The translations under genes and the position numbers were made by a program. A DNA stretch of 64,000 nt from Collinsella sp. An7 (GTDB lineage: Bacteria; Actinomycetota; Coriobacteriia; Coriobacteriales; Coriobacteriaceae), in assembly GCF_002159335.1 (NCBI RefSeq), contig NZ_NFHP01000008.1, positions 1-64,000 on the forward strand, read 5' to 3'. Positions within the stretch are counted from its first letter, which is position 1; each line of letters opens with the position of its first letter. The notes under the pieces are model-generated. The model had not been told where the DNA came from, did no database searches, and was given only the letters and a program-made list of their open reading frames with translations. This document shows positions 7,985 to 60,743 of the stretch, one piece after another.

Positions 7985-8046
7985 GTCGAAACGCCGGTTT
8001 ACAAGGGGTCATACGGTCGAATCGCCGTTTTACAGGGGGTCAATAC
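7985..8046 (+). repeat. Direct repeat pair of about 30 bp next to the MITE-like element
   Basis: Two adjacent copies (7985-8014 and 8016-8046) share the pattern GTCGAANCGCCGNTTTACA followed by AGGGGTCA. The second copy runs into the left terminal inverted repeat of the element at 8034-8206, so the pair may reflect an earlier insertion or excision. Confidence 0.65.
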
Positions 8047-8206
8047 CAAAACCTCGCGCCAATGTAAGGATGAAATCGGCACGCGCAATGTAGACCGATT
8101 TTGCCCAACGTCTCTACCAGCGGTTTTGTTCATCGAATTTTGCTCTCTACTCGATAAACCGCAATTCCATCCTTACATTGGCGCGAGGTTTTGATTCTGA
8201 CCCCCT
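8034..8206. mobile_element. MITE-like inverted-repeat element (173 bp)
   Basis: Terminal inverted repeats of about 43 bp (8034-8076 and 8164-8206) begin with AGGGGGTCA and contain ACCTCGCGCCAATGTAAGGA on one side and its complement on the other. They match at all but a few positions. The 87-bp interior has no open frame of note. A transposase is not present, so this would be a non-autonomous element, or a very long hairpin RNA if transcribed. No clear target-site duplication is visible. Confidence 0.65.
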
Positions 8207-9319: not shown

Positions 9320-9349
9320 GCCCCGGCTTGGCATGTGTCCGAGCCAAAA

Positions 9350-9382
9350 TGGGTCACTTGGAACATGTCCCCAAATGACCCA
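9350..9382. repeat. REP-like 33-bp palindromic repeat, copy b
   Basis: TGGGTCACTTGG, AACATGTCC, CCAAATGACCCA: the same family as 1808-1840, lying between gluQ and ferritin. Confidence 0.75.
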
Positions 9383-10007: not shown

Positions 10008-10170
10008 GGGACGTTCCTTCCTCACCATTACCGGCTACGTGCGTTTCGAGTCGCACTCAACGTATACCCGCCTTTGCCGGTTCAAACGCATCCACAATTC
10101 CCTCACGCGGACTTCAACGTTTCGCCTTAATTCGTTCGGTGCGGAGCGCGCGGGCCGCTGCGCGGCGGGA

Positions 10171-10203
10171 TGGGGCAAAACGAACACGTCCCCAACCGAC
10201 CCA
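10171..10203. repeat. REP-like 33-bp repeat, copy f
   Basis: CGAACACGTCCCCAACCGAC with TGGGGCA and ACCCATT flanks. It is a diverged member of the family and lies in the ferritin/DUF2207 divergent region. Confidence 0.6.
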
Positions 10204-14223: not shown

Positions 14224-14371
14224 CGGGTCGACGCTGTGCGCCGGCCTGGCGGGCACCTTGCCGTTCAGCTTCGAGGGCATGGGCGTAAGCCCTATGCCCT
14301 CTCGCTTCGCGGCAATCTGCCTCGCCAAGCCGTCGCTCGCTGTCTTTAATCATTTGGGGACGGGGTTGTTT

Positions 14372-14404
14372 TGGGTTATTTGGGGACGTGTTCCATCTGC
14401 CCCA
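14372..14404. repeat. REP-like 33-bp repeat, copy c
   Basis: TTGGGGACGTGTTCCATCTG with TGGG and CCCA ends. A second related half, ATTTGGGGACGGGGTTGTTT (14352-14371), lies directly upstream and resembles 22545-22579. Confidence 0.7.
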
Positions 14405-14410
14405 TTTTCA

Positions 14411-14459
14411 GCTCGCCCGCTTGTATCGGCTTGATACAGGCGGGCGGGCTGTTTTGTTG
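14411..14459 (+). terminator. Hairpin terminator downstream of purH
   Basis: GCTCGCCCGCTTGTATC (14411-14427) pairs with GATACAGGCGGGCGGGC (14433-14449), followed by TGTTTTGTTG. It lies 190 bases after purH, beyond repeat copy c. Confidence 0.65.
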
Positions 14460-14467
14460 TCCCGATA

Positions 14468-14553
14468 GTTAGGTACCCGCCCATTACACCAGCGTCAAAT
14501 CGTGTCCAAAAACACTCACGATTTGCCGCTCATGTAATGGCCGGGTACCTAAC
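14468..14553. repeat. 86-bp long-palindrome element, copy 1 (imperfect)
   Basis: It starts GTTAGGTACCCG and ends CGGGTACCTAAC, with inner arms AAATCGTG/CACGATTT around a loop. It has the same length and plan as the perfect copy at 60418-60503, with several mismatches between arms. Confidence 0.8.
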
Positions 14554-14590
14554 TTTCTGGGTTGGCTGAGGGCGGGCTTGTCGGGGGCAC

Positions 14591-14666
14591 GGGCCGGTTG
14601 GGGATGTGTTCGCTCCAACCCATTGCTGGAAAATGGGTCAAACGGGGCACGTTCCCAACTGACCCA
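14591..14666. repeat. REP-like repeats, two copies (d1, d2)
   Basis: d1 (14591-14622) contains GGTTGGGGATGTGTTC. d2 (14634-14666) has the arms TGGGTCA and TGACCCA around ACGGGGCACGTTCCC. They lie in the 508-bp gap between purH and the next gene; this gap otherwise holds copy c, the terminator and the 86-bp palindrome, and no gene is seen. Confidence 0.65.
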
Positions 14667-17338: not shown

Positions 17339-17610
17339 GCTCTGTCGCCACGTGCAGATACCTGCCGGTGCCCTCGCACCCGGGCGTGTGGGGACCCGCG
17401 CCGCTAGCGAGAGGTTCGGCCAGCGATCTCCTTTGCTCGGACGCACGGGAATTCATGCGTCCATGGGGGGCTGACCGTGCGTCTACGGCGGCTAAACCGC
17501 GTTGCGCCCCACGTTTCCAGCCGCCCTTCCCGCACCCCCATCAGGTCAAAGCTACCCACATCCTTCAACGCCCCTCCCATTCACCTCGGAGAAGCAGGCA
17601 AGCGCAACGG
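17339..17610. other. Intergenic stretch without a recognised gene
   Basis: This 272-bp stretch lies between the kinase gene and the nested palindrome. It is C-rich on the plus strand. Short open frames exist, but none has a ribosome site. No promoter or RNA gene is recognised. Confidence 0.5.
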
Positions 17611-17732
17611 TGCCGCGAGGGCTGACGGCCGGGCTTCCCTCTGAACGAGTTCCACAGGAAAGGGCGCCGAAGCGCCCTTTCCGAGGACTGTTTGGAGTTC
17701 AGAGGGAAGCCCGGCCGTCAGCCCTCTCGGCA
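17611..17732. repeat. 122-bp nested palindrome between convergent genes
   Basis: The outer arms of 36 bp (17611-17646 and 17697-17732, one mismatch) contain GGGCTGACGGCCGGGCTTCC and its complement. An inner 11-bp hairpin GGAAAGGGCGC/GCGCCCTTTCC (17657-17667/17672-17682) has a CGAA loop. It is located 18 bases beyond the usp stop, so it may serve as a bidirectional terminator. Its arm length is more like a transposable inverted-repeat element. Confidence 0.75.
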
Positions 17733-17750
17733 TCGGGTACGGAAGCGAGC

Positions 17751-23958: not shown

Positions 23959-24003
23959 ATTGCAGAACGGGCGCGATGCCGGTCATTGCGCCCGTTCTGC
24001 AAT
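23959..24003. terminator. Perfect 16-bp hairpin after brnQ
   Basis: ATTGCAGAACGGGCGC (23959-23974) and its exact complement (23988-24003) enclose a 13-base loop. The right arm ends in TTCTGCAA, the unit repeated six more times downstream. It probably terminates brnQ, although no T run follows. Confidence 0.6.
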
Positions 24004-24056
24004 TTCTGCAATTTCTGCAATTTCTGCAATTTCTGCAATTTCTGCAACGGGGTTCG
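24003..24056 (+). repeat. Six tandem copies of the 9-mer TTTCTGCAA
   Basis: Six exact head-to-tail units follow the hairpin, plus a seventh partial copy, TTCTGCAA, that forms the hairpin's right arm. The unit length is a multiple of three, so a frame across it encodes CNF repeats, but that frame lacks a ribosome site. Confidence 0.9.
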
Positions 24057-26326: not shown

Positions 26327-26458
26327 GCATTGCCTGACCTGCGCGACCTTCTGTAGCACCCGATCTTGGCCTTCAATCGTTGGTCGGCGCCCTGAGGCGC
26401 CCCCCCTCCTCTTTCAGGTTAATCTCGGGCACTACAGGAGGCCGTTTCCGTTGTCGAT

Positions 26459-26490
26459 TGGTCAGTTGGGGACGTGTTCCATTTGACCCA
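26459..26490. repeat. REP-like repeat, copy e
   Basis: TGGTCAGTTGGGGACG followed by TGTTCCATTTGACCCA. It is the copy most similar to the one inside purF and lies in the 328-bp gap between ppaC and nhaA. Confidence 0.75.
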
Positions 26491-26606
26491 TTTTGTTCCA
26501 TGGCGATCTTTCTGGGCCTTTTCCCACATGCGGTTGTGAATTCCCGTTGGAATGGGTTTAGCGGGCGCGACCATGTGGTACAAAAGATGTGGCATATATC
26601 GTAGAT

Positions 26607-46651: not shown

Positions 46652-46849
46652 GTGGCCAAAAGTCGTCTCGAAAAAGTACATTGCAGTGCGGCGCAGACGT
46701 TCCTAGCGGGCACAGGCGCGTCATCCGGGCAATCCGGGGCGTTCAGCAAGCATATTAAGGCACCCGATCGCGTCAACAGCCCGCGCCAAGGCCCCTTTTC
46801 GCGCAGCCAAGTCGGCGGTACATACTTTTTCGGCGCCAGTTTTGGCCAT
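46652..46849. mobile_element. Inverted-repeat element with TGGCCAAAA ends, copy 1
   Basis: The left end GTGGCCAAAAGTCGTCTCG plus AAAAAGTACA is matched on the other strand by the right end (ATGGCCAAAACTGGCGCCG plus AAAAAGTATG). Arms are about 33 bp and the element about 198 bp. The ends match those at 60568-60743 while the interiors differ. It separates murQ from the esterase gene. Confidence 0.7.
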
Positions 46850-55005: not shown

Positions 55006-55590
55006 GTTTGACAAGTTGTTGCGCGATTCGGTGGTAGTTTCTCAATCAGGATCGTCCTGTTCTCTTTACATGGCAAACTGCGGCACTGGTGAGGGCTGCG
55101 GCGTAGTTCCGTGGCGGGTTGCCAAAACAAGGCCCATTCAGGTCCCTTTGTTTGACAAGCCGCAGCCGAAGTGTGAGCTCGGCCGGAGTAACCTCGCAGA
55201 TTGTCAAGCTAAGGTCCGTCCAGCTTCTCTTGTTTGACAAAGCGCAACCGAACCGATGGCGTGCGCGGAGTAATCTTGCAGATCGTCAAACAAAGCGCCG
55301 AGTGGACGACCCCCTTTGACAATCTGCGGTGCAACTGCGAATGGCTGCACAGTTCCATTGCGGCTTGTCAAACGGTGGCCCATGCGGGCTCTCCTAATTG
55401 ACAGTCTGCGGCAACGGCGGGCGCTGCACGTCGCTGTTGCCGCACGTTGTCACATAAGCGGTCGATTTAGCCGTCTTGCGTGACAATCTGCGGCAACGGC
55501 GGAGCCGTAGCACACGCCTGCCGCATGTTGGCTCCTAACGGTGCCCGATGGGTCCCCTTGTGCGACGGTCCGCATCAACACCTTGAGCGG
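55006..55590. repeat. Tandem array of about seven palindromic units, period about 82 bp
   Basis: Units begin near 55006, 55071, 55151, 55232, 55315, 55398 and 55480, with a faint eighth near 55560. Each is an imperfect palindrome of 52-60 bp with ends like TTTGACAANCTGCGGCAAC and the complement, then a linker of about 25 bp that often contains GGCCC or GGTCC. The first unit has an internal deletion. The units are diverged. There are no identical repeats with unique spacers, so it is not CRISPR. The array fills the 988-bp gap between the EIIB and capA genes. Confidence 0.8.
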
Positions 55591-60231: not shown

Positions 60232-60395
60232 TGATTGACCATCTGCAGTAGAACTCGCCCTGCCCGGTGCGTTGTGCTGCAGATGGTCAATTCTCAGGCC
60301 CGTTTTGCCCGCTTGTTTGACAACCTGCGGCGCAATGCTCGCGCCCCGCGGCACAGTACGTCGCAGATCGTCAATTGAGACGCCGCGGCTGTTTT
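60232..60395. repeat. Two palindromic units of the 82-bp-period family
   Basis: Unit 1 has GATTGACCATCTGCAG (60233-60248) against CTGCAGATGGTCAATT (60277-60292). Unit 2 runs 60316-60375 with TTTGACAACCTGCGGCGCAA at its left end and GTCGCAGATCGTCAA at its right. The starts are about 82 bp apart, the same spacing as in the array at 55006-55590. Confidence 0.8.
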
Positions 60396-60417
60396 GCGAG
60401 GGTTCTCCGCCACGTTG

Positions 60418-60503
60418 GTTAGGTACCCGGCCATTACCTGAGCGGCAAATCATGGTGTATTTTGACCATGATTTGCCGCTCAGGTAATGGCCGGGTACCT
60501 AAC
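60418..60503. repeat. 86-bp long-palindrome element, copy 2 (perfect)
   Basis: Perfect 39-bp arms (60418-60456 and 60465-60503) start GTTAGGTACCCGGCCATTAC, with an 8-base loop GTATTTTG. It has the same length as the copy at 14468-14553. Confidence 0.92.
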
Positions 60504-60567
60504 TGTTTGGACATGGGGGTCGGTTGAGGCCGTTGGGGTGCAATCGAGGAAGAAAAAACGACGGGCA

Positions 60568-60743
60568 GTGGCCAAAAAGGGTGCCGAAAAAGTAATCTGC
60601 TCGGACATGATCGGGCCCCGGGCTGCCCGCAGCGTCTCGAAGAGTCTCGAAGAGGGTTCCAGTGCCCGGTTCTCGCAGTCGACGGCGCGCGCGATGCCTT
60701 CCAAAGCAGACGAGATTACTTTTTCGACGCTGCTTTTGGCCAC
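60568..60743. mobile_element. Inverted-repeat element with TGGCCAAAA ends, copy 2
   Basis: The left end GTGGCCAAAAAGGGTGCCG plus AAAAAGTAATCT is mirrored at the right end (GTGGCCAAAAGCAGCGTCG plus AAAAAGTAATCT on the other strand). It is 176 bp. The interior has a direct repeat TCTCGAAGAG twice (60635-60654). The ends match copy 1 at 46652-46849. Confidence 0.72.

Follow-up and report, generated by a model that had tools for sequence, protein, structure and literature searches.

The question raised by this locus is what kind of element the palindrome at 60418–60503 is, and how its copies came to be dispersed. It lies in the window, the whole stretch of 64,000 nucleotides that was analysed; the window's contig is C17 of an assembly (G000) that has 18 contigs and is 99.7% complete. 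The two arms (60418–60456 and 60465–60503) were 100% complementary with an 8-nt loop between them, which bore out the first-pass description of an 86-bp palindrome with flawless 39-bp arms. The copy at 14468–14553, described there as an imperfect sister of equal length, was also confirmed. When folded as single-stranded DNA (DNA parameters) and compared with dinucleotide shuffles, the 60418 copy gave −51.1 kcal/mol with z = −16.6, indicating that the palindrome is far beyond chance. The 14468 copy gave −31.3 kcal/mol with z = −9.5 against its shuffles. Judged from the loop, the two copies lie in opposite orientations. The features discussed below are as follows.

60418–60503, + strand: palindromic element, perfect 86-bp copy, arms matching at 39/39 positions
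60418–60456, + strand: left arm of the 60418 copy, outer 12 bases GTTAGGTACCCG
60457–60464, + strand: 8-nt loop of the 60418 copy, GTATTTTG
60465–60503, − strand: right arm of the 60418 copy, exact reverse complement of the left arm
60431–60490, + strand: 60-bp core, N10-AGCGKCA-N26-TGMCGCT-N10, possibly common to palindromes of other Coriobacteriaceae genera
60416–60417, no strand: putative 2-bp target duplication, left copy, TG
60504–60505, no strand: putative 2-bp target duplication, right copy, TG
14468–14553, − strand: the window's other copy of the element, 86 bp, 33/39 arm matches
14409–14451, + strand: ordinary intrinsic terminator-like hairpin downstream of a purH-like gene

The first-pass annotation had called for a genome-wide copy count. 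The search found further copies, exactly seven in all, each 86 bp long and each intergenic. They occupy seven loci on six contigs (C17:60418, C17:14468, C11:110485, C18:26332, C15:3813, C14:80742, and C5:134). With genes called by a simple codon-usage script, the spacers holding them were co-directional, convergent, and divergent. A search of 60 related genomes (E ≤ 0.001) added an eighth copy, the only one in the sister species Collinsella sp. An307 (G003; NZ_NFIP01000010.1). A covariance model built from the eight copies gave strong matches only in the window's genome and An307 among 67 family genomes; E-values of such models are inflated for any long hairpin, as seen from Rfam microRNA scores. 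The element was not found in the seven remaining species of this genus, so that it is present in two of nine genomes. No match was found in phage, plasmid, or viral-contig collections. In a GTDB scan with one genome per species, the sole match beyond An307 was a 20-base stretch in Haloarcula; it was isolated and was put down to chance rather than taken as a relative. That the palindrome arose by chance or as an assembly artefact is scarcely credible, as seven independent loci on six contigs carry it and one more copy stands in another species' assembly.

The copies were then compared with sister-species loci. The An307 copy and the C15 copy share one site, which lies in a 7-kb region with 93% identity between the two genomes and a carB-like gene; identity reached 95–97% close to the element. 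The other six copies were missing from An307 in the family-wide model search. Around the C14, C17:14468, and C18 copies, sister species keep the order of flanking genes, and their spacers were without the element. The spacers could not be aligned between species, so a base-exact empty site was not recovered. The rRNA-flank paralogues of the C5 copy gave no empty site either, since their divergence begins before the insertion point. The strain polymorphism that the earlier annotation had proposed to look for was thus found at the species level, with six of seven copies missing from the sister species, while its comparison with exact empty sites yielded none.

All eight copies share constant ends, GTTAGGT/ACCTAAC, and conservation falls sharply beyond them. 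The outer 12 arm bases were constant in every copy except at base 8, which is A, or G in the An307 copy. The arms carry GTTAGGTACC, and the orientation of the element can be read from its loop (consensus YGATTTTG).

The copies are dispersed and of fixed length, have constant ends, sit between genes, and are missing from orthologous spacers of sister species. The 86-bp palindrome is probably a MITE-like insertion element, non-autonomous and mobilised in trans, that belongs to one Collinsella-like genus; we put the probability of this reading at roughly 0.6. Set against the features described for MITEs (PMC10969869), it is short (<500 bp, always 86 bp, and a hairpin throughout) and has no coding capacity, its terminal inverted repeats are conserved among copies, and it is dispersed, multi-copy, and polymorphic between relatives. 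No autonomous partner with the same ends was found in its own genome or in 67 genomes of the family. A surviving partner is usual for a MITE and is not required. Apart from a partner and a confirmed target duplication, the palindrome is MITE-like in every testable respect.

The sequences next to the element point to how it may insert. The 2 bp adjoining the ends were identical on both sides in four of seven copies (TG/TG, TA/TA, TT/TT, and TA/TA) and mismatched in the other three. The chance of such identity is about 7% per copy, which gave P of about 7e-4 against background; permuting the flanks among copies gave only 0.10. Read outward, the flanks had the consensus TATYNGG, and 12 of 14 half-sites began with T. 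In this small sample, the flanks resemble a favoured target site that is roughly palindromic and is duplicated over 2 bp. The element would enter between genes at such a T-rich target and duplicate 2 bp of it. An enzyme encoded elsewhere would mobilise it in trans, and its two arms would serve as the recognition ends of that enzyme.

Because no mobilising enzyme was found, the mode of movement was inferred by analogy with ERIC and RUP, whose features are tabulated in PMC2229807. ERIC (IRU/RU-1) of enterobacteria is likewise a long palindrome repeated between genes; it has TA at its termini, and no autonomous partner is established for it. It was likened to the element by description; ERIC is about 127 bp and imperfect, whereas the element is 86 bp, up to perfect, and low in copy number. 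RUP of Streptococcus pneumoniae is a non-autonomous repeat of about 100 bp at TA targets. Unlike the element, which has 7 copies and no IS630-type gene in its genus, RUP has the partner IS630-Spn1 and 108 copies. Passive mobile palindromic elements without an enzyme of their own are a known kind, and the genus-restricted, low-copy palindrome described here, which is real, looks like one of them. We infer that transposition caused its dispersal.

Several searches were made for the mobilising enzyme. Across 67 family genomes, no gene was bracketed by GTTAGGTACCCGGCC (≤1 mismatch in 15 bases) at other sites. In the element's own genome, searches for a partner with the same ends (a 20-mer with 3 mismatches and a 12-mer with 2) returned the known copies and short matches at chance level. 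No DDE_3 transposase (IS630-type, PF13358) was found in the nine genomes of the genus, and TA stood on both sides in only two of seven copies; the element does not have the features of an IS630/Tc1-type MITE. A DUF559-like gene was considered as the mobiliser and set aside, as no homologue lay near the seven copies in the stretches read; it stays a lead. A DUF559-like gene lies downstream of a galM-like gene in G005 and G006 (L165 and L163), and the 60418 palindrome adjoins the same galM-like gene. Near position 340854 of G000:C1 (L062), a DUF559-like gene has on both sides GGGTTCA(C/T)TGCCGGGTTCA repeats, which belong to a different palindrome family.

The first-pass annotation had suggested that the ends of the palindrome may be recognition sites for a REP-type (TnpA-REP) enzyme, and that an associated Y1-type transposase should be looked for. 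REPs have a GT(A/G)G foot, usually number more than 100 copies, and flank their RAYT gene (PMC2817692); they are 20–40 bp long (PMC3733652). Spread of the element by a RAYT (TnpA-REP, Y1) transposase would fit a dispersed, extragenic palindrome and the presence of a RAYT-like gene in the genome. That gene, the only one of its kind in the genome (C12:176535), is flanked by inverted GGGGACG repeats and not by the element, and no copy of the element was found on contig C12. The foot of the element is GTTA instead of GT(A/G)G, its copies number seven and not tens to hundreds, and its 86 bp exceed the length of a REP. Y1 genes occurred in seven of nine genomes of the genus, a distribution unlike that of the element (two of nine). 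These results spoke against the suggestion, and we regard a REP or REPIN moved by a RAYT as very unlikely.

A dispersed REP-like palindrome of another kind, AATGGGTCA..GGGGACGTGTTCC..TGACCCATT, has many copies in the genome (also L068). It was seen in the window at 793–837, 1807–1840, 9349–9382, 10170–10203, 14362–14406, 14580–14666, and 26448–26492. Repeats related to this palindrome, GGGGACGGGT, stand on either side of the RAYT-like Y1 gene at G000:C12:176535.

The window contains further repeats. At 8034–8206, 43-nt arms that are 91% complementary and 87 nt apart form another dispersed inverted-repeat element, with a second copy, 70% identical, on contig C5 (L269:11564–11736). At 17608–17735, 39-nt arms are 95% complementary and 50 nt apart, and no second copy was present in the stretches read. 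At 55150–55501 and 60234–60391 there are inverted repeats around TTGACAATCTGCGG / TTGACCATCTGCAG, with several adjacent to one another. Those at 60568–60743 and 46653–46848 (GGCCAAAA..GAAAAAGTAATCT / AGATTACTTTTTC..TTTTGGCC) are about 115–145 nt apart, and related pieces were found on C15 and in An307. At 23986–24047, a nine-base unit, TTCTGCAAT, is repeated in tandem at least five times.

The palindrome might also be a functional RNA hairpin (a terminator, an mRNA stabiliser, or a processing site) that selection has kept after the copies spread. The very stable fold, some paired changes, and the location of most copies downstream of one or more predicted genes are in line with such a function. 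The T tract is missing at six of seven copies, and no terminator-like match was found at 60418. As the terminator-like hairpin at 14409–14451 precedes the 14468 copy, the palindrome is not needed as a terminator there. By its sequence, then, the element is not a terminator. One copy lies between divergent genes, and gene neighbours in sister species do without the element. No Rfam family reached its cut-off; generic microRNA hairpin models alone scored, and they scored below it. An RNA role as the explanation is improbable.

Pairwise identity among the copies was about 80–89%, i.e., they differ by about 11–20%. Gene identity between species at these loci was 80–92%. The divergence of the copies roughly equals that of genes between species, so no recent burst took place. 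The first-pass annotation had reasoned that perfect long palindromes are unstable in bacteria and that the 60418 copy is either recent or actively maintained. Arms of 39 bp are well under the size at which palindromes turn inviable in E. coli, so the instability argument is weak. Recency did not hold up, with copies just 80–89% identical and the closest genomic relative of the perfect copy only about 88% identical to it.

How the arms became perfect was approached through their mismatches. Within copies, the arms differed at 0, 6, 6, 3, 6, 6, and 9 positions in the seven copies and at 2 in An307; arms of different copies differed at a mean of 5.4 of 39. Symmetric changes, in which both arms of a single copy carry a change that another copy has on one arm only, were seen at three positions: base 21 (60418 copy, with C11 changed on one arm), base 19 (C18, with C5 changed on one arm), and base 8 (An307, with its partner C15 changed on one arm). 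Pairs altered on both sides numbered 6 versus 3.5 in shuffles, and 23 of 500 shuffles reached as high. Overall, arm similarity within copies did not significantly exceed that between copies (P = 0.15 for eight copies and 0.31 for seven). Template switching in quasi-palindromes is known to rewrite one arm from the other. Because the 60418 copy is without a near-identical source, its perfection suggests arm homogenisation by hairpin template switching rather than a very recent insertion. This explanation is tentative, since the overall test of arm coupling was not significant.

Some palindromes of other genera are possible relatives. In genus g5, weak matches had the core TACAYNAGCGTCA, placed as far from the centre as it is in the element. 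A second model then detected palindromes in 31 of the 67 genomes of the family, with some of its matches (L214 and L220) looking like unrelated hairpins. Compared by sequence, the palindrome families of g5 and g3 are clearly related to each other. The element matched them at 15 of 24 consensus arm bases. Because this match came from a wide search, their kinship with the element is taken as possible and no more.

In genus g3, the palindromes mark a hotspot between dusC and a glutaredoxin-like gene (stretches L201, L199, L202, L254, L263, L217, and L256). The spacer of G078 has a length of 180 bp and a single palindrome without cargo, and it matches the outer flanks of the other g3 genomes joined at one palindrome. 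In G060, G062, and G084 it is about 1.25 kb and has two palindromes in the same orientation. An RHH gene (PF01402) was read inside the block in G028 and G084. In G068, the spacer is 4.5 kb and contains a macro-domain gene and radical-SAM-like genes between direct palindromes; in G033, IS110 and IS3 elements lie between palindromes. The pairs about 1.08 kb apart were considered as insertion sequences, a reading that was rejected as their cargo is the RHH gene or another one and they have no transposase of their own. At a second g3 locus, next to rpsF (L259–L262), a DUF559/MTES_1575-like (PD-(D/E)XK) gene lies between palindromes, and this palindrome-flanked segment is inverted between species. 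G026 (L257:1141–2880) has a 38% identical DUF559-like homologue between palindromes at a different locus, so that two genera in all show such a gene between palindromes, which are homologous.

These arrangements bear on whether the element itself is a recombination site, i.e., a palindrome bordering exchangeable gene blocks like the possibly related ones of other Collinsella. The junctions in the dusC-glutaredoxin spacer fit a relation between one-site and two-site forms. All seven copies of the element, however, are single, with no bracketed cargo where synteny was readable, and the link to the g3 family is a weak arm similarity from a wide search. Plain homologous recombination between repeats would also explain the hotspot, as well as a dedicated system would. 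We consider it unlikely that the element is such a site. Its broader form, in which the element belongs to an old, family-wide set of Coriobacteriaceae recombination-site palindromes, single when empty and paired directly around exchangeable genes, seems quite doubtful. The cargo would then comprise the RHH antitoxin-like gene, the DUF559/PD-(D/E)XK-like nuclease, and the macro-domain block.

Integron attC sites were compared as well. They resemble the g3 palindromes, the possible relatives, in that these border exchangeable genes in direct orientation. An attC site has the end order RYYYAAC...GTTRRRY. The element ends in GTTRRRY...RYYYAAC, the reverse order, and no cassette was present at copies with readable synteny; attC was rejected although the end motifs are similar.

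We found no description of such a palindromic repeat family in this gut actinobacterial lineage. As a probable MITE-like insertion element, the palindrome would add a genus-restricted repeat family to this lineage, and it offers a clean case for how near-perfect palindromes stay perfect as their copies diverge. The g3 hotspot palindromes that border variable genes would matter if they were proven to be active recombination sites. If the family-wide reading were true, they would represent a hairpin-based cassette system outside integrons, and the copies in the window would be its cargo-free sites.
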